A stretch of 64,000 bases of DNA from Gammaproteobacteria bacterium (GTDB taxonomy: Bacteria > Pseudomonadota > Gammaproteobacteria > UBA4575): assembly GCA_011523795.1 (NCBI GenBank), contig WTFY01000009.1, positions 62,001-126,000 on the forward strand, read 5' to 3'. Shown piece by piece: positions 248-12,941 of the stretch; position 1 is the first letter of the stretch; each line of letters opens with the position of its first letter. The translations under genes were made by a program, and so were the position numbers. The notes beneath the pieces were generated by a model. That model made no database searches. It worked only from the letters and a program-made list of their open reading frames with translations, and was not told the DNA's origin.

Positions 248-1192
248 CTACAGCTCTTCCTGTTCAAAATAGTCTTCGTCGACCCGCTTGATCTCGTAGC
301 GATCGCGTGTCCGTACTCCTACACCGTGTTGGACCATAAGCCGGGCCAATTCTTCTCCATCGATCAGAATGATTCGCTTTGGACTGCGTGCGATGTAATC
401 CCGCGCAGATCGCGTGAATCCGGCTGTGGTGACGAAAACACCCTTGGACGTGCCTGCCGCGTCGATGGCCCCTGCAAAGTTTCGCAAGTCGCTTTCACCG
501 ACGTTGCTGCCTTCGGCGTACTTCTTGGCCTGAACATAGACCTCGTCCAGACCGAGCGCGTCTTCCCTGATTGTACCGTCGATGCCGCCATCCCCTGAGC
601 GTCCTGTCACACGGCTCTTGGCTGCATCACCTCCACCATACCCCATCGCAACCAGTAGATCGACAATCACATGCTCAAGAAACTCGGGAGGAGAACTGCG
701 GACAAGATCCAATATTTCAGACTCCAGCATGGTACGCAGTTCCTCGGCAGCACGCCCCAGTTGTTCTTCAGGAGTCTCTTCGGAGCCAGGCACTTGGGAC
801 TGTGTTGGCGCAGCCTTGATTGTGCCCTCATGTTCCTTCCGTTGCTGCACCAAACGCTTCCACTCTGCATACGCTGGATAAGTACGAAGTACAGTCTTAT
901 CCACTCTCTCCGGTGCTTCACTCAGTAACCGGTGACCCTCAGTTGTTAGTTGATACACTGCGCGGCGTACCCGTTTCACCAGCCCGGCCCGTTCCAGGTA
1001 GAGTAACGACCAGCTTATGCGATTGTTCAAGACCGTCTGCTGCCCACTTGGCACCCGTTGGGAGAGTTCTTCCTCAGTCAGCTTTTCTGAAGCAGCAACA
1101 TGGGCTCGTATCTTGGATAGTGGAGCCTCCAACCCGTCGGCGAGTGCCTTGAGGACTGGAAGCATGAGCGACTGATAGTCACCGATAGGCAT
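248..1192 (-). CDS. mrr: Mrr-family restriction endonuclease
   Basis: 314 residues, close to the length of E. coli Mrr. Residues 1-95 form the winged-helix Mrr N-terminal domain, followed by a charged linker. Residues about 165-290 are the Mrr catalytic (PD-(D/E)xK-like) domain, with the pattern GDGGIDG (Asp205) followed by VYVQAKK (Gln221, Lys223) and then FVTTAGFTRSA. Mrr enzymes cleave methylated DNA as type IV restriction enzymes. This one is directly upstream of hsdM (12-base gap), an arrangement in which a modification-dependent nuclease and a modifying enzyme are co-expressed. The alternative is that it is an accessory of the type I system rather than an independent type IV enzyme. Start chosen at the ATG at 1192. 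Confidence 0.9.
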   Translation of the reverse strand: MPIGDYQSLMLPVLKALADGLEAPLSKIRAHVAASEKLTEEELSQRVPSGQQTVLNNRISWSLLYLERAGLVKRVRRAVYQLTTEGHRLLSEAPERVDKTVLRTYPAYAEWKRLVQQRKEHEGTIKAAPTQSQVPGSEETPEEQLGRAAEELRTMLESEILDLVRSSPPEFLEHVIVDLLVAMGYGGGDAAKSRVTGRSGDGGIDGTIREDALGLDEVYVQAKKYAEGSNVGESDLRNFAGAIDAAGTSKGVFVTTAGFTRSARDYIARSPKRIILIDGEELARLMVQHGVGVRTRDRYEIKRVDEDYFEQEEL

Positions 1193-1619
1193 ACAGTATA
1201 ATTCTTTTATATATCAAAGTGCCAAGTTGTCACACACTGTTGAACCTGATATTCCTTCGTAATATGCGCTTAGCTAAGTGCTTGAGCTTCTTGTAGGTAT
1301 GGCTACAGTTGCGATATTGTCCAGAAGTGGTGCGTCTACTGCAACACCATGTGGAGGTTCAGCAAATGATATTGCTCGTTCTTGCTCTGCCCCTTAAACT
1401 TGCCCCAGTTTATGGGAAGCCTGTTAGGATTCAGCGCTCCTTAGGAAGTACAATTAAAAACAGAACTTTCTAAAAGCCTGAACAGACAATGGCTTAAGAC
1501 TATTATTCGAATCCTGCTCGGCCAATATACATTTTTATGTATGCCCATACACCCTCAGATCATGGTCTCAAAACTGCAGGGCATTTTTCGGCAAATGCTT
1601 TCTTTTGGGGAATTGAGAA
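1193..1619. other. Non-coding A/T-rich stretch between mrr and the IS remnant
   Basis: No convincing gene. It holds the presumed promoter region of mrr on the minus strand, the outer inverted repeat of the IS remnant (1396-1421), and the left copy of the tRNA-like direct repeat (1504-1521). The rest is A/T-rich sequence with stops in every frame. Confidence 0.5.
1504..1521 (+). repeat. Left copy of an 18-bp tRNA-3'-end-like direct repeat (putative att)
   Basis: TATTCGAATCCTGCTCGG is present here and exactly again at 7851-7868. TTCGAATC plus the following bases look like the T-loop, T-stem and acceptor strand of a tRNA. This copy continues CCAAT while the right copy continues GGCACCATT, so the left one may have lost four bases before CCA. 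Tyrosine integrases often use tRNA 3' ends, so the pair may mark island borders. No full tRNA gene is attached to either copy. Confidence 0.5.
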
Positions 1620-2502
1620 ATGGCTGAAATTAATCTGATTTCCCTGATTGACCGTTTCAATTGTGATTGTTGCATGCCGTCAGACTTTGGAGCAAATTCG
1701 ATGGCCTACCGGCATTTACTACACCCAATGTGGCGATAGAGACGTTCTTGAATTGCCCAAGCACAATCGTTGGGAGTGCAAGAACTGCAAATATTAGTTC
1801 AGCGTGACATCGGGAACCATCATACATGACTCTCACCTTCCGCTTAGAAAATTGTTTCTCGCCATCTACCTGATATACAAATCAAAGAAAGGAATATCGG
1901 CTAACCAGCTTCACCGTACCCTTGGAATTGCTTACTGTACAGCCTGATATCTATTCCACCACATTCGTGAAACAATGAGCAATAACCCGCATGAAGGCCC
2001 TACTCTATTCGGCATAGTGGAAGTCGATGAAACGTTGGTTGACAGCAAGGTAAAAAGTAAAGGACGCCGATATACGAGAAACAAGATGTGGCTAGCTGGA
2101 GCCATTCAAAGGGAAGGCAAGATTCGAGTAGAGTTTTTGCCCGATATCAAAAAGCGTACCTTACATAACTTTATTGCCAGAGCCGTCAAGGGTGAGGCTG
2201 AGGCAATTTTCACGGATGAACTAAGATCGTATCTTGTGCAGACCGTAACACCTGCCATGAGACGGTCAATCATTACCAATGAGTAATGGGTGATTGGAGA
2301 CGTGCATACCAATAGTATTGAAGGTGTGCGGACCTTGTTCAAGCGATCTTTAATGGGCACCTTTCACAGAAGGAGCAAAAAACACATGGATCGCTATCTT
2401 GAAGAACTGAAATGGCGATTCAACAATCGTGATAACGATCACATATTCAGGTATATGCTGGCACACAGCATGAATACCAAGAACATACTCTACCTAACTT
2501 AA
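1620..2502 (+). pseudogene. IS1595-family (ISXO2-like) transposase, pseudogene
   Basis: The reading starts at ATG 1620 (MAEINLISLIDRF), shifts frame near 1672, and continues through a damaged zinc-ribbon (first Cys lost, CGDRDVLELPKHNRWECKNC kept). It then passes in-frame stops at 1795 (TAG), 1945 (TGA) and 2284 (TAA) to the stop at 2500-2502. Between them the ISXO2-like DDE domain is clear: IVEVDETLVDSK holds the first catalytic Asp, FTDELRSY the second, and VHTNSIEGVRTLFKRS plus DRYLEELKWRFNN match the C-terminal part. One frameshift and three stops make it non-functional. Confidence 0.85.
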
Positions 2503-2560: not shown

Positions 2561-3415
2561 CTAGCTGTTCCTTTCCGATGGTATATACGTTGTATTTCGA
2601 ACACGAGCTACCTCAGCCCAAACAGACGGCCAATCGTCGAACGACATGGGGCCGTCGACCTCAATGGTGGGGCTGGCTTCGGTTCGTTCTTTCTTAGGCT
2701 TCCACCCTGTGAGGTACCTCGATCTGGAACCTGCCAGTAATGCTGCATCATAGTCTTCCAGACGTTCCATGAAGCGCTTTGTTGCAGTAATCTTGTCACG
2801 AGTGGCGCCAGCCTTGGTTAGACAACGAAGAATACGATCTTCATCAAACTCGCCCAAGTCGGGATCAGTTAATGCTGTAGGATGCAAAAAACAGTGATCC
2901 TCATAGAAGCACAGTAGCCTGCACCAATGTTCTGACCACGAGATGAAAGTATACAAGCTCGGCGACACAAGAATCCCACAAACCTCCTGAACAACTCTGC
3001 TCCTTTTCTCCGACATCCGGTAGGCGTCCAAGAAGCCTCGCCCGAGAAAGAGGTCACGCCGATGCACGACCGGACCAAAACCTAACCCCCCACGCGCAAT
3101 AAATCCATTCAAGAGCAGCTGGTGATATAACAAAGAACCAGCAATGAGGTATTTGCCTGGCTGATTTTTAACTCGTTTCTTTGAATACAATATGAACATG
3201 TCATTCAACCGGAGCGTAGTAAAATCCCTTGTACCAAACACCCGTTTGCGACCAACCATTATTAATTTGTGCGGAACTTTAGATCTGAATCCATGATACT
3301 GCTCATCTAGCTCTGTCACCAGATCCATAAGGCTGTCAGGATTTCTGCACTTGTCTATCTTACTACTCATCCCAAGGGCATCAAGCACAAGAACCGGTGA
3401 TAGGATAGGACGCAT
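2561..3415 (-). CDS. Divergent class III nucleotidyl-cyclase-like protein
   Basis: 284 residues, not confidently assigned. The N-terminal half has the order of motifs seen in bacterial class III adenylate/guanylate-cyclase-like proteins: VLVLDALGMSS (Asp12 at the first metal site), RLNDMFILYS (Asp72 at the second), ARGGLGFG (residues 107-114) and GRGFLDAYRMSEK (125-137). The C-terminal 130 residues are helical and charged with no motif I know. Whether it makes a cyclic nucleotide is inference; base-selecting residues could not be placed. It lies alone on the minus strand between the IS remnant and the ART-like gene, about 520 bases from the latter, inside the A/T-rich island. Alternatives are an inactive cyclase fold or a regulatory protein. 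Confidence 0.55.
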   Translation of the reverse strand: MRPILSPVLVLDALGMSSKIDKCRNPDSLMDLVTELDEQYHGFRSKVPHKLIMVGRKRVFGTRDFTTLRLNDMFILYSKKRVKNQPGKYLIAGSLLYHQLLLNGFIARGGLGFGPVVHRRDLFLGRGFLDAYRMSEKRSRVVQEVCGILVSPSLYTFISWSEHWCRLLCFYEDHCFLHPTALTDPDLGEFDEDRILRCLTKAGATRDKITATKRFMERLEDYDAALLAGSRSRYLTGWKPKKERTEASPTIEVDGPMSFDDWPSVWAEVARVRNTTYIPSERNS

Positions 3416-3932: not shown

Positions 3933-4595
3933 TCAGCGTACCAACTCGGCTAAGATCTCATTTGCCACGCCACGCTTCACGTCAATGATCGCCTCCTTGA
4001 TCCTCTCTACCCGTTCCAACACGCATACCTCAGCAACTGCACCTTTCCTTCCTCGCGTTTTTTTCCGTATCTCGAATGGATAGTCTTGGAATCGCTTGAA
4101 CAAGCTCATATCTCTGGGGTGTGCAATAGGTTTCGTGCACCCGCTGTTCATCCATGAGAGTCGAATGTTGGGTTCCTCCAACCCAACTAGTGTTTTCGCA
4201 TTAATAACTAACACGTCATGCGTCACTTCTTTGTACGCCGATGCTGAGATCATCGTCTTTAACCGCTCTTTTGTCGGCCAGAAAAACACCATCGAGTTGA
4301 TCAGATCGTACCACTGCCATGGTTCTGCCGTACCACAAAGTGCCCGCCGTAAACCTCCATCAGTCAAAGGCTTCTGGTCTCGTAGCACCGCCCGAGGCCG
4401 ACCTGGACAATCGATCGCCACCCAATGCGGTCGTCGTGACCGTGTAAACTTCTCGATCTCTTCATCACTCTTATCATACAGCTGCAAGAGCGCCTTCGAT
4501 GAAAGTAGCCCATGCTCCTCTATGCTTGGCCAACTGCCTCCCCATGCGATGTGATACAGCACTGGATAGTAGTGCCACAGGTCTTCAGGCATCAT
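3933..4595 (-). CDS. DUF7002-type putative ADP-ribosyltransferase (DarT-like fold)
   Basis: 220 residues from the ATG at 4595. The start contains VLYHIAWGGSWPSIEEHGLL, which resembles the NAD-binding opening of DarT (DUF4433) and related ART-fold toxins, where a His is followed by S-I-x-x-x-G-L. A large conserved middle (HWVAIDCPGRPRAVLRDQKP, WYDLINSMVFFWPT, MNSGCTKP) fits my memory of DUF7002. A late VAEVCV supplies a candidate catalytic Glu (about residue 189). By analogy it would transfer ADP-ribose to a nucleic acid, nucleotide or protein; the substrate is unknown. Its ATG overlaps the stop of the upstream gene as TGATG, so translation is coupled. The macro-domain gene two positions upstream is the natural counter-enzyme. 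Function is inference. Confidence 0.6.
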   Translation of the reverse strand: MMPEDLWHYYPVLYHIAWGGSWPSIEEHGLLSSKALLQLYDKSDEEIEKFTRSRRPHWVAIDCPGRPRAVLRDQKPLTDGGLRRALCGTAEPWQWYDLINSMVFFWPTKERLKTMISASAYKEVTHDVLVINAKTLVGLEEPNIRLSWMNSGCTKPIAHPRDMSLFKRFQDYPFEIRKKTRGRKGAVAEVCVLERVERIKEAIIDVKRGVANEILAELVR

Positions 4596-6208
4596 CACCA
4601 ACGCCTTCTGTCAATGACGCACTTGTGGTCGAATCGATTTCCAATCAGCGAACAAGGTACTCCCCCCACGTTTTCTACCTCTTCCACAAACTTGATTGTC
4701 TCCAGTGACAACTGGTCAAAGCGGACAGCATCGCGGTTGCGTACATCCAAGTAGTCAACGAACGTGAGCGCAATATCCGTTGGGGAGTTTAAATGGCAGG
4801 CGCGACGAAGCATGTACCAGTCGAACTCACCCACTCTTCTCTGCTTCGATGAACGTGATCCTACTTCGTGCTTTAGTAATTCGTCTTCCGGGATTCCTGA
4901 GCGTTCCGATATCGTTTTCCAATTGATTTCTTTCGAGAATTTACCCGAATTTCCGCCGACCCGAATCGGGTACGTCCGGCATACTAGGACTATCTTGCGC
5001 ACCCTCCTAGGGCTAATACCAGCCTCAGAAATACAGCCCGATACAGTGGTGTCTCGCGATGTCACTGACGGATAGTCACCATGGAATATGCTCAAACCTG
5101 TCCCTTGCGTTCCCTCCAGCAAAATTTTCTCGCCTCTTGCATAGGCCAATTCCATACGCTCCACCGTGGAACTGATGTAGGGCTTGAGTTCCCGGAATTG
5201 TTGCCCTAGATCCTTAGCAAGTTTACAGCCCCTATCGTCATGAAATCGGTCTGTTACGCGTCGTGCAGTAGCTTTACCCACTCCCTGAGCCGTAGACCCA
5301 ATCCCAGGCTCCAAGTACTTTTTTTCCCATTGCTGATCCTGGGAGGAGACAACTACCGCATGTTCATCTATGATAAGGCGCTCAGGTTCGACTTCGCATT
5401 CACGTATTTCCTTGAGCAAGAGATGGGGCTCAATTACAGCGCCTGGTCCGATCAGCAATTGCGACTTATTACTCTTTCGCGTCCCACAAGGAAGTGAAAT
5501 ATGCGTGTAAGGGGGTTCCTCGTAAACCTTATGTCCCGCATTGGGTCCTCCAACTCTCATTAGTACGTCGTAGTCGGGTGACAGGTAGTCTGCAATGTTC
5601 CCTTTTCCCTCGCTACCATACTGACCACCTACCAGTACATCAACCAACTTTTCAGATGAACGAGAATGTAGGTTAAGTCTGGCACTGACCTGACAAAGCA
5701 CATCCTTTTCCGTATGGCGCGCTGTGTCAATCACCATATCAGCTTGATGCTTGAGCTTGTCTACTTGGCGCTCTGATGGGTCATTGATCACTTCCTCGTA
5801 ACACAGACCTATATCCTTGTGGCGTTTCGAATTCTCAAATCTTTCCTTTTGAGTTACACAGTCCACAGACAAATGGACGTGCCTAACATTTCGGTGACCA
5901 ATCGCATTCTGAATCTCTGCCATTTGCTTCGGTTTTCGTACACCTTCCAACACAATGGGCATTTCGTCATGGTTACTATGAATTTCTTCTGCGATTTTGA
6001 TAGCAATCCAAGCACATCCAGTCTTTTGATCCAGCCTATTCCCTGCACGTTGAAGGGAAACACGATCACCATCGATCTTTGACATCTGTTCTCGAATGAG
6101 ATCGCTCGTTTTAATGACACGGCATCCGTGGTCTGCCCTGAGTCGATTTGCGAGAACGGTTTTGCCACTTGCCATCCCACCGCTGATCACAATCAGTCTA
6201 ACTGTCAC
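4595..6208 (-). CDS. P-loop nucleotide kinase fused to a PurZ-like adenylosuccinate synthetase
   Basis: 537 residues from a GTG at 6208. Residues 1-180 are a P-loop kinase (VISGGMASGKT Walker A, then VLEGVRKPKQ), similar in layout to dNMP/dephospho-CoA kinases. Residues 188-537 are a short, archaeal/phage-type PurA domain: VGGQYGSEGKG (195-203), GGPNAGH with His226, IGSTAQGVGKA (303-313), EGTQGTGLSIFHGDYPSVTS (365-384), and SKQRRVGEFDW plus PTDIALTFVDYLD. The catalytic Asp of PurA (GDEGKGK, seen in the housekeeping PurA at 26.6-27.9 kb) is Ser199 here. From memory, the same replacement marks the phage enzyme PurZ, which joins aspartate to dGMP on the way to 2-aminoadenine. It is 15 bases downstream of the macro-domain gene and coupled to the ART-like gene. 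Substrate and product are unproven. Confidence 0.75.
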   Translation of the reverse strand: MTVRLIVISGGMASGKTVLANRLRADHGCRVIKTSDLIREQMSKIDGDRVSLQRAGNRLDQKTGCAWIAIKIAEEIHSNHDEMPIVLEGVRKPKQMAEIQNAIGHRNVRHVHLSVDCVTQKERFENSKRHKDIGLCYEEVINDPSERQVDKLKHQADMVIDTARHTEKDVLCQVSARLNLHSRSSEKLVDVLVGGQYGSEGKGNIADYLSPDYDVLMRVGGPNAGHKVYEEPPYTHISLPCGTRKSNKSQLLIGPGAVIEPHLLLKEIRECEVEPERLIIDEHAVVVSSQDQQWEKKYLEPGIGSTAQGVGKATARRVTDRFHDDRGCKLAKDLGQQFRELKPYISSTVERMELAYARGEKILLEGTQGTGLSIFHGDYPSVTSRDTTVSGCISEAGISPRRVRKIVLVCRTYPIRVGGNSGKFSKEINWKTISERSGIPEDELLKHEVGSRSSKQRRVGEFDWYMLRRACHLNSPTDIALTFVDYLDVRNRDAVRFDQLSLETIKFVEEVENVGGVPCSLIGNRFDHKCVIDRRRW

Positions 6209-6223
6209 TAGATCAACTCATGC

Positions 6224-7540
6224 TTATCTAGGTGCAAACTCGAACACCCTAACCTCCAATCCAGTTGATACTAGATGCTCCCGGATTAATCCCTCTATTA
6301 CAGACCAATTCCCTCTTGCTTGCCCTGTACCGATCTTTGGCATCTGTACCATCGTAACGCCTGCTTTGCTGAGTACTTCCCCTGCTTGCCTTAGAGACTT
6401 ATCCAATGCATCGTAACGAATCCTCGGTTTCACTGATTTCCCATATCCCCGCTGTGCAACAAGACTCACAACAAATTTATTGTCAGGCAATCTCGCTACA
6501 TGGACTGCACCAAGTTTTTTTTCCATGGTTCGCTTAGTGGCCCACCACGTATAGTCGTCATAGGCCGTAGGGTGTTCTTCTCTAACTGCAGGCGCAAATC
6601 CCCGTCTTCCCCAACGATTCGCAGTGTCATTCACAATATGGAGTATCGCTACATTTGAGTCGGCAACAAACCGTGCAGCGCTGCCCTGCCTATACCCAAT
6701 TCCTCTTACATTTGGCACCTCAGATGTTGGGCGAATGAAACCCGCTACTCTCAGATTCTCAGTACCTGGTAGAGGGGGTAAAGCAACTCCCTCCACATGT
6801 ACTTCTGGACCATTTTTGTCCCATTGTTCTACCCCCTTTGCTGTAGTACCAATTGCTACGCACTGATCCAGCACCTTGGATTTAAGCCGACGCGGAGCTT
6901 GGCGCCTTGCCCAGTCCAACCAATGTGACGATCCGATTCGGTAATCAATCCGGTACTCCATTAAACTCCTAGCTTTTGCTATTCTGGTTGCTGAGAAACA
7001 TGCCACCCTTGAAGATGCCAGCTTCACTAATCTGATCAAAATAGCCTCCGCGGAAACCTGATACTCTCTTCGCAATTGCATTAGTTCTTCTATCGTCACG
7101 ACAGAATCGCTATTCAGTAGAAACGATCCAACAGGCATCATCATCTCCGCCGCACCTACATTGCAAAGCAGCTCTAACTGCCAGCTATGCCGCTCCCACT
7201 TATCCCGGCTTCGGTTCCGAATCTCATTAGCACAATCTGTAAAAAACGTGTGGGCTATTTCATGGGCGATTGAGAAGTTAACCCTGCTGCGGGGCTTATG
7301 TGGGTTGTATTCAATGACGAAACGGCCATTGACCCAAAACACTCGTGCATCGGCCAATGCGGCATTTGGTCGGACATCAATTCCTCTTTTTTTAGCCAGT
7401 TGGACTGGATCAAATGGTGGACCGCTCCATCCCTGATCCACTGCCTGAAAGACAGCCTGTCGAGCTATGCGTTCCATCTTCTCAATGGGGTCTTCGTCAG
7501 CCGCAAAGCTGACCACAGATTTGTCTGTCCACTTAGCCAT
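6224..7540 (-). CDS. ImmA/IrrE-type metalloprotease fused to a macro (ADP-ribose-binding) domain
   Basis: 438 residues from the ATG at 7540 (a TTG at 7552 would add four). Residues about 45-190 form an ImmA/IrrE peptidase: NFSIAHEIAHTFF contains the HExxH zinc motif (93-97), and GAAEMMMP supplies the third ligand Glu132. No helix-turn-helix precedes it. After a linker, residues 284-436 look like a TARG1/Poa1-type macro domain: AILHIVNDTANRWG, FVVSLVAQRGYG, then VTMVQMPKIGTGQARGNW. The residue that I align to the catalytic Asp125 of human TARG1 appears to be Ala, so it may bind rather than cleave ADP-ribose. First gene of the three-gene operon, the usual place for an antitoxin. ImmA proteases relieve repression or immunity in mobile elements, so the protease part may control the system. 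Confidence 0.75.
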   Translation of the reverse strand: MAKWTDKSVVSFAADEDPIEKMERIARQAVFQAVDQGWSGPPFDPVQLAKKRGIDVRPNAALADARVFWVNGRFVIEYNPHKPRSRVNFSIAHEIAHTFFTDCANEIRNRSRDKWERHSWQLELLCNVGAAEMMMPVGSFLLNSDSVVTIEELMQLRREYQVSAEAILIRLVKLASSRVACFSATRIAKARSLMEYRIDYRIGSSHWLDWARRQAPRRLKSKVLDQCVAIGTTAKGVEQWDKNGPEVHVEGVALPPLPGTENLRVAGFIRPTSEVPNVRGIGYRQGSAARFVADSNVAILHIVNDTANRWGRRGFAPAVREEHPTAYDDYTWWATKRTMEKKLGAVHVARLPDNKFVVSLVAQRGYGKSVKPRIRYDALDKSLRQAGEVLSKAGVTMVQMPKIGTGQARGNWSVIEGLIREHLVSTGLEVRVFEFAPR

Positions 7541-8188
7541 GTTTTCTAACAACTTACCTATAAGTACGAATCATCAACATGACGCTGTTTCTCCTACCTA
7601 CTCAGACCGAGTGGAATATGGATATTAATACTGTAATTGTCAAGGCCGATGCTGAAGTCGCCTCTCAAACAGAAGTTGCTTAACTTAGCTGATTCTAAAT
7701 TTCTCAAGTTGACTAGTGGCTTACATACTTATACCACGTGTCTTTAATTCCCCAAAAGCCTCTTAATCTTGAAGCTAGCGAGGGTAAGAACGTTGGTAAA
7801 GGTAAGAAACTATCATGTTATATTAAATAATATCAGCAACTTGTACTAACTATTCGAATCCTGCTCGGGGCACCATTTGGAGCCTGAACTCCCATGTCGA
7901 CCAGTGACTGCTGTTCAGTGTCAAGTCCCCTGGTGATATACCAGTGTTCGTAAAAAGCCATGAGCGGCTTGCCCACCCCCAGAAACTGGTACAGTAGGAC
8001 AGAGCCGAGGAGTTCATCCAAGACGATTTATGGCACCCATTGGGCAGCTCATACAGGTTACTTGTTTAGCGGAATTAAGCGCTCTTAGCGTATAATGATT
8101 TCCAGTGTGATACTGACTGCAGGATTTTCAAATTTTTGCTGCCGGCCATGAATCCCTTTTTGCTCCCGATCAGTACGAGGCCCTTAAA
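7541..8188. other. Island right border: operon upstream region and tRNA-like repeat, no clear gene
   Basis: Bases 7541-7850 are strongly A/T-rich, have stops in all frames and should hold the promoter of the macro-domain operon. The tRNA-like repeat lies at 7851-7868. From there to 8188 base composition returns towards the backbone. A TTG-started 62-residue minus frame (8021-7833) reads into the repeat and has no ribosome binding site or family; I do not call it. Confidence 0.45.
7851..7868 (+). repeat. Right copy of the 18-bp tRNA-3'-end-like direct repeat (putative att)
   Basis: Exact copy of the repeat at 1504-1521, here followed by GGCACCA, so the sequence through 7874 looks like a complete tRNA 3' end with encoded CCA. 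The expected 5' half of the tRNA (an acceptor strand beginning GCCCCGA) is not present in the preceding 90 bases. It is similar to but not the same as the end of tRNA-Leu(CAG) at 22181. The two copies bracket about 6.35 kb of A/T-rich accessory DNA. Confidence 0.55.
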
Positions 8189-8528: not shown

Positions 8529-9098
8529 TCAATATTCCCACGAGTACGGCTCGATACGTGTAGCCTGCATGGTGTATCCGGCGTCACCGATATCGTTCAG
8601 GTGCCCCAGGGTGCTGATCACTCCTGTCACCCATACCGGGTCAAACAGCTCGTCCAGCGGATAACCCAAAGTCGTCTTCACGTAGACGATCTGGTTTGAG
8701 GGTGGTGGAGGCACATGGATACAGGCCCCAAAGAAGGGGACGAGCAGGAACTCAGAGGTATCCGTACCTTCGAAGTCGAGTGGTATGACGAACCCCGGAA
8801 GCCGCACCCTTTGCCCGTCAAGCTCACTGACTACGGGCGCCTGCCGGGCCGCATCCAGATAGGCTTCGTACAGCTCCTCGGCTCGAGCATCGTCGTCAGG
8901 GAGGTCCTGTTCGAAATCTCCCAACAACAGATCAAGCTCAAGCATGGGATCCCAGTCTTCGGGCATGAGATCTTCCCATTCGAGATTTCGCACCTCGTCC
9001 TGGGCTGCTGCCTGCGTGATGGTGGATGCGAAGGACAGTGCAATCGTGACAGTTACTGCTGCAGTAACCGCAAAGGCCTGTAGAGGTTGTGTGAGCAT
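8529..9098 (-). CDS. DUF3299 periplasmic protein of the zinc-acquisition operon
   Basis: 190 residues from the ATG at 9098, with an upstream AGGA. It begins with a signal peptide (MLTQPLQAFAVTAAVTV... ending near TITQAAAQ), so it is exported. The mature part has the DUF3299 core: VRLPGFVIPLDF, FLLVPFFGACIHVPPPPSNQ (one Cys and one His close together, a possible metal site), and VWVTGVI near the end. Its exact role is not established; the family is common beside FtsX-like permeases and DUF2796 proteins. It starts two bases after the permease stops, so it is co-translated with the transporter. Together with the ATPase, permease and ZrgA it resembles the Zrg zinc-import operon described in Vibrio cholerae. 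Confidence 0.8.
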   Translation of the reverse strand: MLTQPLQAFAVTAAVTVTIALSFASTITQAAAQDEVRNLEWEDLMPEDWDPMLELDLLLGDFEQDLPDDDARAEELYEAYLDAARQAPVVSELDGQRVRLPGFVIPLDFEGTDTSEFLLVPFFGACIHVPPPPSNQIVYVKTTLGYPLDELFDPVWVTGVISTLGHLNDIGDAGYTMQATRIEPYSWEY

Positions 9099-9100
9099 GT

Positions 9101-10360
9101 TCAATTCCTGATTGAAAGACCGTCCGCGAGCGACAGGCGATAGGCGCGTATGGCAGGAATGCTGCCCGCCACACCACCGGCCAACACTACAGCACCGATA
9201 ATCCACAAGTCTTCCAGTGCAGGCAGTTCAACCGGAATATGCAGACCGAACTCTCGCGACATAATTGGCTGGCCAACCAGTACAGCCACGTAAAGCAAGG
9301 CTATCCCGATAGCCGCTCCGAGCAGTGAAAATATTATCGCCTCGCTCATGAACAGTGTAAAGACATGCAGGGGTCGAGCTCCAACGGACCGCAGGACTGC
9401 CATTTCACGCCGCCTCGACTCAAGACTTGACAGGATCACGGTCAGCATTCCGAGCAGGCCGGTTACGACAACCATGGAAGACACGACCCGGAGCACGTTT
9501 TCTGCAACACTCATCAAATCCCAAAGCTCCTGCAGCGCCACGCCAGGAATGATCGCGAGGAGCGGCTCTTCACGATATTCATTGATTTTCCGCTGGACGG
9601 AAAAAATGGAAATTTTCCTGTCCAGCCCGACAAGAAATGCAGTGATGGTCTTGGGTGTGAGATCCATGGCACGTGCCTCGTCCGCGGAGATGGTCAATCC
9701 GGGTATCCGGGCACCGGCTTTCCAATCAATATGCATCGCAGTAAAGCCTTCAATACTGACATGCACGGTGCGGTCGACCGGAGTCCCGGTAGGCGCCAGA
9801 ATCCCGGCCACCCGGAAAGGTTTGTCGTCGTGATCCAGAAAGCTTACTTCACCGGCGCCGTGGGAAATAATGAGTTTGTCACCGAGAACATAACCAAGCC
9901 GTTGTGCAACCTGTGCTCCAAGTACAGCATCGAAAACATCTTCAAACGGGGCGCCCTCTGAAAATGCCAGTGATTCGGTACGGGCATACCGGTAGTGCTC
10001 GAAGTAGGCACCTGAAGTCCCCATCACCCGGAAACCTCGATGTGAGTCACCAAGCGCAATCGGCACCGTCCACCGGACCCGGGGAAAGCCGGCGACGTCT
10101 TCGTAACTCTCCCAGGAAATATTGCTGGTGGCATTCCCGATCCGGAAAATCGAGTAGAGCAAGAGCTGGATAGCACCGCTGGGCGCACCGACAATCAGGT
10201 CCGTGCCCGATATGGTGTTGGCAAATGCACCGCGCGCATCGCGACGCACTTTCTCCACACCAAGCAGCATCGCGATGCTGAGTGCGATCGCGAGAAGTGT
10301 CAGCCCCGCCGTGACACGACGGTTCAGCATGCTCAATAAGGCTAGGCGAATGATCGCCAT
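9101..10360 (-). CDS. FtsX/MacB-type ABC transporter permease
   Basis: 419 residues. One N-terminal membrane span (LTLLAIALSIAMLLGV) is followed by a large periplasmic MacB-like core (about residues 40-260) and three C-terminal spans: MVVVTGLLGMLTVILSSL, a pair around EAIIFSLLGAAIGIALLYVAV, and DLWIIGAVVLAGGVAG. SRRREMAVLRSVGARP is the typical FtsX cytoplasmic loop. In this family such permeases couple ATP hydrolysis to work on periplasmic substrates rather than simple import. It lies downstream of the ATPase and upstream of DUF3299. By context it belongs to a Zrg-like zinc system, but the transported or released molecule is not proven. Confidence 0.85.
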   Translation of the reverse strand: MAIIRLALLSMLNRRVTAGLTLLAIALSIAMLLGVEKVRRDARGAFANTISGTDLIVGAPSGAIQLLLYSIFRIGNATSNISWESYEDVAGFPRVRWTVPIALGDSHRGFRVMGTSGAYFEHYRYARTESLAFSEGAPFEDVFDAVLGAQVAQRLGYVLGDKLIISHGAGEVSFLDHDDKPFRVAGILAPTGTPVDRTVHVSIEGFTAMHIDWKAGARIPGLTISADEARAMDLTPKTITAFLVGLDRKISIFSVQRKINEYREEPLLAIIPGVALQELWDLMSVAENVLRVVSSMVVVTGLLGMLTVILSSLESRRREMAVLRSVGARPLHVFTLFMSEAIIFSLLGAAIGIALLYVAVLVGQPIMSREFGLHIPVELPALEDLWIIGAVVLAGGVAGSIPAIRAYRLSLADGLSIRN

Positions 10361-10460
10361 GGACCGTCCGCTTGCAGAAGAACATTCAGGGATTTGCTCA
10401 AGCCATGATCCCTGGTCCTCTTTCCTTGCATCGCATACCCTCTCCAGGCACTACGCTTTT

Positions 10461-11174
10461 TCACGTGGGTTCCTTGGGCTGTCCGGGAGCAGCCCGGTTT
10501 AACTCGATGAGAGACACCCTGCGATCAAACATGCTGCTGAGCCGCATATCATGACTCGCGAACAGAAGGGATGCACCCATCTCGTCACACTGAGCTGTCA
10601 ATACTTCCAGGAAACGCTCGCGTGTACCCTCATCAAGAGAAGATGTTGGTTCATCGGCCATGATCAGCTCAGGCGCTCCAATGAGTGCCCGGGCAATGGC
10701 GACTCGCTGCTGCTGGCCGATGCTGAGGTCCGTCACGGGCCGCCCATGCAACTCGTGCTGGTCGAGTCCGAGACGGTCGAGCAGGCGACGGGCTTCGGCT
10801 TCGGGCGATTCCGCCCGTGACCTCACGCGCTTTCGACGCAAAAGTGAAAAGCGGCACGGCAGCGTGACGTTATCCAGCATCGAAAGGTATGGCACCAGAT
10901 TGAACATCTGGAACACGAACCCGATGTGATCCGCACGGAACAGATCGCGACGGTGTGCGGGCATACGCGACAGATTGGTCTGGAGAACCCGGACAGTTCC
11001 TTCCCGGGGACTCACGACTCCCCCGAGCAAACTGAACAGCGTGCTCTTGCCGCTGCCACTCGGCCCTTCAATGAATACCCGCTCCCCTGCTGAAACCCGG
11101 AAACATTCAATGTCGACAACATCGCGTTGACCGGGTTTCCAGGCAAACCGGATGCCATCGACCTCTACGGTCAT
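10461..11174 (-). CDS. ABC transporter ATP-binding protein (LolD/MacB type, Zrg-like zinc system)
   Basis: 237 residues from the ATG at 11174 (MTVEVDGIRFAW, preceded by GGTGAA); the open frame extends 22 codons further but without family similarity. Walker A is GPSGSGKST, the Q-loop is GFVFQMFNLVPYLSML, the signature is LSIGQQQRVAIARAL (ABC transporters more often have LSGGQ), and Walker B is LIMADEPTSSLD followed by the switch His in FASHDMR. It powers the FtsX-like permease 100 bases downstream. Confidence 0.88.
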   Translation of the reverse strand: MTVEVDGIRFAWKPGQRDVVDIECFRVSAGERVFIEGPSGSGKSTLFSLLGGVVSPREGTVRVLQTNLSRMPAHRRDLFRADHIGFVFQMFNLVPYLSMLDNVTLPCRFSLLRRKRVRSRAESPEAEARRLLDRLGLDQHELHGRPVTDLSIGQQQRVAIARALIGAPELIMADEPTSSLDEGTRERFLEVLTAQCDEMGASLLFASHDMRLSSMFDRRVSLIELNRAAPGQPKEPT

Positions 11175-11449
11175 CGTCTTCACCCTGTTCTCATGCCAGG
11201 CGCACAATCCCGCCACCGCTGACGGTAGCGGCCTGCACACTCACCCATGCCAGCAAGAGCTGACTCGAAACACCCACAATTCGCTTACTGCCCCTGGATT
11301 CCTTGACAAGCACCTGATGATATCAGTCATGCGGGAAACCGGGCAGTACCTCCTCGATCCCGCCAGTCAGCGGGCGGGCGAGAACCGGGCACCCAGTATT
11401 GCTACAGCTTGCAGGAGTGAACCAGCTCCGCCTTCCAATCGGTTACAGG

Positions 11450-12295: not shown

Positions 12296-12628
12296 TTACT
12301 CAAATTTTGTACGAACAACCGGATTGAGCCGGTCCTGGTAAAACGTGACGGCCTCCGGAGTCAGTACAATATGATCACCTTCTTTCGAATACATCTTGAA
12401 CCCGTTAGTATGCTTGTAGTCCCAGTGACCCACAGGCTGATCACCTGGACCCAGCAGCACAAACTCCCTGGACTTGATCTTGTCAGCAAAGATGATGCTT
12501 GAGCCCGAATCCCGGGAAATCACATCGTAGATCAGGAATCCTACAAAGATGATAATGGCTATCCTGACCGTCCGCAGTGTACGTTCCAGCTTCTGTACAC
12601 GCTCCTCAAGACCTAGTTCTTTTTTCAT
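12296..12628 (-). CDS. Membrane-anchored hypothetical protein with N-terminal coiled coil
   Basis: 110 residues from the ATG at 12628, with GGGAG nine bases upstream. A short coiled coil (GLEERVQKLERTLRTVR) is followed by one membrane span (IAIIIFVGFLIYDVI) and a soluble domain of about 70 residues: KSREFVLLGPGDQPVGHWDY, then DHIVLTPEAVTFYQDRL. The soluble part resembles beta-strand domains found in small uncharacterised membrane proteins, but I cannot name a family. It is monocistronic, between the zinc operon and ispG. Confidence 0.65.
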   Translation of the reverse strand: MKKELGLEERVQKLERTLRTVRIAIIIFVGFLIYDVISRDSGSSIIFADKIKSREFVLLGPGDQPVGHWDYKHTNGFKMYSKEGDHIVLTPEAVTFYQDRLNPVVRTKFE

Positions 12629-12941
12629 CACTCATACTCCCGTGTCATTATCCCGGTAACCGGAGAACTGCCTGATACATTAATATTTTTCGATACCATT
12701 TAGCGTGCACCCATGATACACCCCGTTCACTGAACCCACAGGTACATTGACCGGTTCATTCAGTCAAGGCTCCTGTGTCTGATTGTATGTGCACAGATTC
12801 TAACTGAAATCCAGGACGGCAAGACGCTCACCGTATTTAGGACAGGACTTGCATTCCGGATTGCAGTCCGGTCCAGTTCGGATACAATTGGACACACGCC
12901 TCACCAGGACACACAGCCGAAATGATACCCGGACAACAAAA
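12629..12941. other. Divergent upstream region between the coiled-coil protein and ispG
   Basis: No separate gene seen. It should contain the promoters of both neighbours. The ispG frame is open back to a TTG at 12849, but the translated leader (12849-12941) lacks family similarity. Confidence 0.4.

Follow-up and report, generated by a model that had tools for sequence, protein, structure and literature searches.

The window, a 64,000-nucleotide stretch of a gammaproteobacterial contig (WTFY01000009.1, positions 62,001 to 126,000), carries a predicted cyclase-fold gene, P0001, near its left end. The features at this locus were as follows:

248 to 1192, minus strand: Mrr-type methyl-directed (type IV) restriction enzyme, in another segment of the same island
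1504 to 1521, plus strand: left repeat of 18 nt and left-hand bracket; its 16-nt core equals part of the 3' end of a tRNA-Arg
1975 to 2502, plus strand: IS1595-type transposase, broken, separating the left repeat from P0001
2561 to 3415, minus strand: P0001, predicted cyclase-fold protein of 284 aa; intact ATG-to-stop ORF
3933 to 4601, minus strand: DUF7002 protein (termed ART in the first-pass annotation), in the operon adjacent to P0001
4595 to 6208, minus strand: P-loop/adenylosuccinate-synthetase-like fusion, found with DUF7002 at two of four other loci
6224 to 7552, minus strand: protein with an ImmA/IrrE-type peptidase domain and a weak DarG-like macro domain
7851 to 7875, plus strand: right repeat and right-hand bracket; this second copy is extended by a tRNA-like end that includes CCA

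An exact 18-nt direct repeat (1504–1521 and 7851–7868) encloses the IS1595 debris, P0001 and the DUF7002/PurA/macro operon. A tRNA-Arg(CCT) gene located 12.4 kb before the window start (contig C7:49520–49596) contains the 16-nt core in its 3' end, and with no more than one mismatch the core was found at three places in the 2.07-Mb assembly, the two repeats and this tRNA. Between the tRNA and the left repeat, PADLOC matched GajB and GajA of Gabija, together with a type I restriction enzyme and the specificity and methyltransferase subunits of type I systems. The earlier proposal that P0001 and the operon share an island was therefore strengthened, with tRNA-derived repeats bracketing both inside a defence island. 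In one sister genome (G658) the tRNA-Arg is followed by 285 bp, a homologue of window 12296–12631 and then ispG, and compared to this site the window's genome carries approximately 24.7 kb extra at tRNA-Arg. A second sister genome (G659) has 3.3 kb between tRNA-Arg and ispG, where the other right-flank window proteins had no match. The site was readable in these two of the four sister genomes, as the remaining two (G657 and G660) have the tRNA and ispG on separate contigs.

The interval from tRNA-Arg(CCT) to ispG (G000:C7:49520–74296) is a variable site among the sister genomes. The stretch from 7876 to approximately 12250 is also absent from the G658 site, yet lies outside the repeats, and ORFs within it (window 8529–11240) resemble ABC transporter/FtsX-type genes by eye. 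Just before the left repeat, window 1447–1517 is 82% identical to G000:C17:110202–110272 (L165); a similar tRNA-end-like stretch follows there with no tRNA gene found, perhaps the end of a related element. No integrase was noticed on inspection of the ORFs listed for the island.

The ORF and four motifs reported for P0001 by the first-pass annotation were all present in the order described, namely Asp12 (LDALGMS), Asp72 (LNDMFIL), RGGLGFG (residues 108–114) and GRGFLDAY (residues 125–132), and the gene is intact. Two relatives, at approximately 69% identity, come from a MAG labelled Poribacteria (L002), with an intact frame, and a MAG labelled Gammaproteobacteria (L003), in which the frame is broken. 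Compared to L002, the proportion of differing sites was 0.19 for nonsynonymous and 0.73 for synonymous sites (dS approximately 2.8, saturated), and identity by codon position was 0.75, 0.84 and 0.46. Judged from the sequence, P0001 is a genuine protein-coding gene with a purifying pattern relative to L002. GC content was 0.48 in P0001, against 0.49 in the PurA and macro genes, 0.51 in DUF7002 and 0.57 in ispG.

P0001 had no match in Pfam (none at E 1), NCBIfam or PADLOC, and direct searches of PDB sequences, plasmids, phages and viral contigs returned nothing useful. A wider family was reached through very weak P0001 matches in 398 genomes of the phylum; among four weak foreign matches, two (L004 and L005) were members that opened the family. 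A further candidate, L006, was rejected, the ORFs listed for it not resembling members. Family proteins are mostly 215–320 aa long and start with V-A-F-I-D-I-L-G-F; they also carry F-S-D, R-G-G and G-x-A-x-x-x-A-Y.

Profile–profile comparison (hhalign) of 23 members, without P0001 and L002, with 26 class III cyclases gave a probability of 94.1% with collinear motifs, and 92.8% when P0001 and L002 were added, compared to 0.7% for the reversed cyclase profile and 0.8% for the best of 30 column shuffles. The cyclase set represented 26 of 30 loci, leaving out L084 (stops) and L083, L102 and L111 (no sequence). P0001 and L002 matched the 23 members at 97.3% (reversed, 0.4%), and scored 1.0% when compared alone with the cyclases; the link of P0001 to the cyclases is therefore transitive, via the wider family. 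The class III cyclase model PF00211 had no match in P0001 at E 1, short of its curated cut-off, and matched one of 25 members (E 0.0036). A PDB search with the 25-member profile returned adenylate cyclases at E 0.038 and weaker, ranked below repeat-protein artefacts; neither an 8-member profile nor L004 alone returned a cyclase from the PDB, and BFVD gave no match at E 0.001.

The AlphaFold2 model of P0001 had a pLDDT of 70 and a pTM of 0.68, with confidence below 50 at residues 40–62 and most of 234–284. The best 50 Foldseek matches listed for it (best E 2.1e-4) were class III cyclases or a class III cyclase-like protein, and VIA aligned 158 residues with Rv1625c (Z 11.8, rmsd 3.4). The model of a relative, L033, was of higher confidence (pLDDT 85, pTM 0.85), with a Foldseek E of 5.2e-5 and a VIA Z of 14.9 (rmsd 3.2, 157 aligned). 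Both models have the predicted fold of a class III catalytic domain. The similarity to class III cyclases proposed from the sequence alone thus held in the family profile comparison and in the predicted fold; with both found, P0001 is not the protein lacking class III similarity that would have overturned that proposal. Together, the profiles and predicted models place P0001 in the class III fold as a divergent protein rather than a canonical cyclase.

The residues aligned with the cyclase active site map to the following codons:

3380 to 3382, minus strand: Asp12, first of the two predicted metal ligands; invariant across the 37 members
3200 to 3202, minus strand: Asp72, second of the two predicted metal ligands; likewise invariant across the 37 members
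3086 to 3094, minus strand: Arg108-Gly109-Gly110; Arg in 36 of 37 members, first Gly in 37 of 37
3017 to 3043, minus strand: G125-R-G-F-L129-D-A-Y-R133, in the register of the canonical G-D-t-V-N-l-A-a-R, with Leu129 in place of Asn

Asp12 and Asp72 are in register with the cyclase Asp pair, and across 37 members conservation was complete for Asp12, Asp72, Gly15 and Gly109 (37 each), followed by Arg108 (36) and Ala131 (35). We take the purine Lys and Asp positions, and those of the transition-state Asn and Arg, to have the roles they have in class III cyclases. The available part of PMC4886424 agrees with these roles and reports established cyclases that lack the transition-state Asn, so loss of the Asn alone is compatible with activity. 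The four canonical residues (Lys, Asp, Asn, Arg) are kept in 2, 3, 2 and 5 of the 37 members, compared to 21, 22, 24 and 19 of the 26 cyclases. P0001 itself has Leu68, Arg126, Leu129 and Arg133 at these positions; with Arg133 in register, it therefore lacks only the Asn of the transition-state pair. Leu68 and Arg126 do not form the base-specifying Lys/Asp pair (or Glu/Cys), and with that pair lost the substrate is not predictable. Given the missing canonical residues, activity may have been lost or may differ.

The 37-row set comprised 24 of the 25 rows of alignment A4 (without L067, a near copy of L068) and 13 genome loci. It retained the similar pair L072/L073 and excluded L133 (the L043 protein), L141 (internal stops), L127 (a 78-aa piece), L077–L082 and all plasmid members. 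A4 used 23 of 25 viral-contig proteins, excluding the near copies L055 and L069, and 16 of 41 loci were left untranslated.

The family has members on chromosomes and plasmids as well as in viral contigs. At E 1e-6 the A4 profile detected it in 14 of the 398 phylum genomes, among them the window's own, and one member matched 52 plasmid records, including Pseudomonadota, Bacillota and Bacteroidota. A PHROG of unknown function, phrog_23933, matched 25 of 25 A4 members at E ≤0.01 and 8 of 10 further or repeated proteins at E 0.001; phrog_21097 also matched many members. P0001 itself matched phrog_23933 weakly (E 0.0041; absent from the listing at E 0.001), as did the L003 piece, so the two probably form an outlying branch. 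Scans of 25 members with Pfam-A, PADLOC and NCBIfam gave weak matches to single members only, and the plasmid copies with features listed carry hypothetical annotations, which makes the family easy to miss. It was not named in the titles or abstract openings of the top-ranked open-access papers, and the mentions of 'cyclase' in the available part of PMC13092281 refer to other cyclases. Megablast found no E. coli copies of two members, and no annotated phage homologue was found, the one partial match being in an unannotated record.

No conserved partner emerged around P0001, L002 and L003, where the ORFs differ by eye and a DUF3800 gene, at L003, was the only one identified. It lies just upstream of the broken-frame relative (L003 4264–5109). 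The possible fusions L160 and L139 had no Pfam match naming a partner domain. Of 16 plasmid records examined (from 52), 5 had a defence-type gene annotated no more than 5 kb from the member, an uncontrolled count, and 11 lacked one by strict count; the genes counted were an annotated dsr1, an AbiEii toxin, a VapC/VapB-type toxin-antitoxin and a restriction-modification methyltransferase. OLD/AAA-type ATPase genes were found near two genome-locus members (L135 and L140). On an Agrobacterium plasmid (L027 4989–5840) the member lies directly downstream of the annotated anti-phage sirtuin dsr1. At L136 (4855–6711) the member begins 3 bp past a ParA-type ATPase gene of the same orientation, and the two may form one unit.

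The first-pass annotation had suggested that P0001 may sense or signal within the operon, with a reservation over the gene debris separating them. That reservation fits the locus, where 517 bp separate P0001 from DUF7002 and the one ORF tested in between (66 aa) had no Pfam match. Across 19 genomes of the host's family, a P0001-type gene (E 0.01) or DUF7002 was found solely in the window's own; G438, of the same family, carries a distant cyclase-fold member (L146) in a different setting. In the phylum sample of 398 genomes, DUF7002 was present in four besides the window's own. The recurrence that the first-pass annotation had proposed to look for was absent, as none of these four other DUF7002 loci (12.6-kb stretches, approximately 6 kb around) had a cyclase-fold gene nearby and, conversely, none of 17 other cyclase-fold loci had DUF7002 nearby (several stretches being shorter than 12 kb). 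The pair of DUF7002 with the PurZ-like P-loop/adenylosuccinate-synthetase-like fusion was observed at L148 and L149, where the window's ImmA-macro protein was unmatched. No cyclic-nucleotide-binding (CNBD, PF00027) protein was detected in the assembly (approximately 97% complete) at E 0.001, compared to 10 of 14 control genomes positive, and PF00211 had no match in the window's genome at E 1e-10. Signalling within the operon was not borne out, as no effector was recognised alongside, PF00027 was without a match and the canonical purine-recognition residues are missing. The lack of recurrence, the 517-bp gap and the absence of PF00211 and PF00027 matches make a Pycsar-type relay inside the operon unlikely, and a functional link between P0001 and the operon is unsupported.

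Compared to known class III cyclases (PF00211; Rv1625c, Rv1900c, Ma1120, soluble guanylate cyclase), P0001 is alike in predicted fold, motif order and metal Asp pair and, unlike them, lacks the Lys/Asp base residues and the Asn and is unmatched by the PF00211 model. According to the available part of PMC11224242, the Pycsar PycC enzymes have a class III fold and an Asp pair; P0001 resembles PycC (6yii, 7r65 and the enzymes of that paper) in these respects and in its defence setting, and differs in having no recognised PycTIR/PycTM partner and no PADLOC match. No adjacent PycTIR/PycTM effector was found, the recognised neighbours being transposase debris, Mrr and the DUF7002 operon. The clade A PycC 6yii ranked 32 among the Foldseek matches listed for P0001 and was the sole PycC recognised among the best 50 listed by Foldseek and VIA for P0001 and L033. 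PADLOC likewise gave no PycC-named match among 25 members, although its library may lack a PycC model. The DUF2652 cyclase-like proteins, as described in the available part of PMC4886424, likewise resemble class III enzymes, mostly retain the Asp pair and often have another residue instead of the Asn; unlike the P0001 family, most of their table entries show a Lys/Glu or Glu/Lys pair. The DUF2652 Pfam model matched none of the 25 members at E 0.1.

The reading we prefer, to which we give an even chance, is that P0001 is a stand-alone divergent class III-fold protein carried as cargo of the tRNA-Arg island, likely a metal–nucleotide-binding homodimer that makes a nucleotide product. Asp12 and Asp72 would bind the metal–nucleotide at the homodimer interface, the bound nucleotide would be turned into a nucleotide product, and the base would be recognised by residues other than the canonical Lys/Asp pair. 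Such a protein may contribute to defence or take part in conflicts among mobile elements.

A pseudo-cyclase, in which the fold binds nucleotide and metal without cyclising and acts as a nucleotide sensor or regulatory subunit, is a tenable explanation that we consider somewhat improbable. The near loss across the family of the base-specifying Lys/Asp and the transition-state Asn is consistent with it, as is a genome without a PF00211 cyclase or a PF00027 protein at the thresholds above. Retention of both metal Asp residues in all 37 highly diverged members would, however, be unusual in a relic that has lost catalysis, P0001 has Arg133 in register, and established cyclases lacking the Asn are reported in the available part of PMC4886424. 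A decaying passenger gene without function is unlikely; the broken IS1595-type gene on one side of P0001, the stretch without a recognised gene on the other and the broken frame of L003 would fit decay, whereas the frames of P0001 and L002 are intact and the two genes show a purifying pattern. Least probable, and very doubtful, is a Pycsar-like system in which a cyclic mononucleotide would switch on an effector of this island, perhaps the ART/macro operon, since the fold and Asp pair shared with PycC (PMC11224242, available part), the 6yii match and the common repeat-bracketed segment are set against no effector gene recognised alongside, no PF00027 protein, no co-occurrence of DUF7002 and cyclase-fold genes at the 4 and 17 other loci, and no PADLOC match.

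Signalling by cAMP and cGMP depends on class III cyclases, as does Pycsar signalling. With P0001 read as a stand-alone class III-fold protein, the new element is the unnamed family rather than the P0001 copy; the family is carried singly on mobile DNA, and P0001 lies inside a true defence island. That the family makes a new signal or decoy nucleotide through non-canonical base recognition, as a single-gene anti-phage or inter-element weapon, is a speculative and rather unlikely extension. With the metal Asp pair retained, the known base-recognition residues mostly gone and mobile DNA as its carrier, this large unnamed branch is a testable source of new nucleotide chemistry in the conflict between phages and bacteria.
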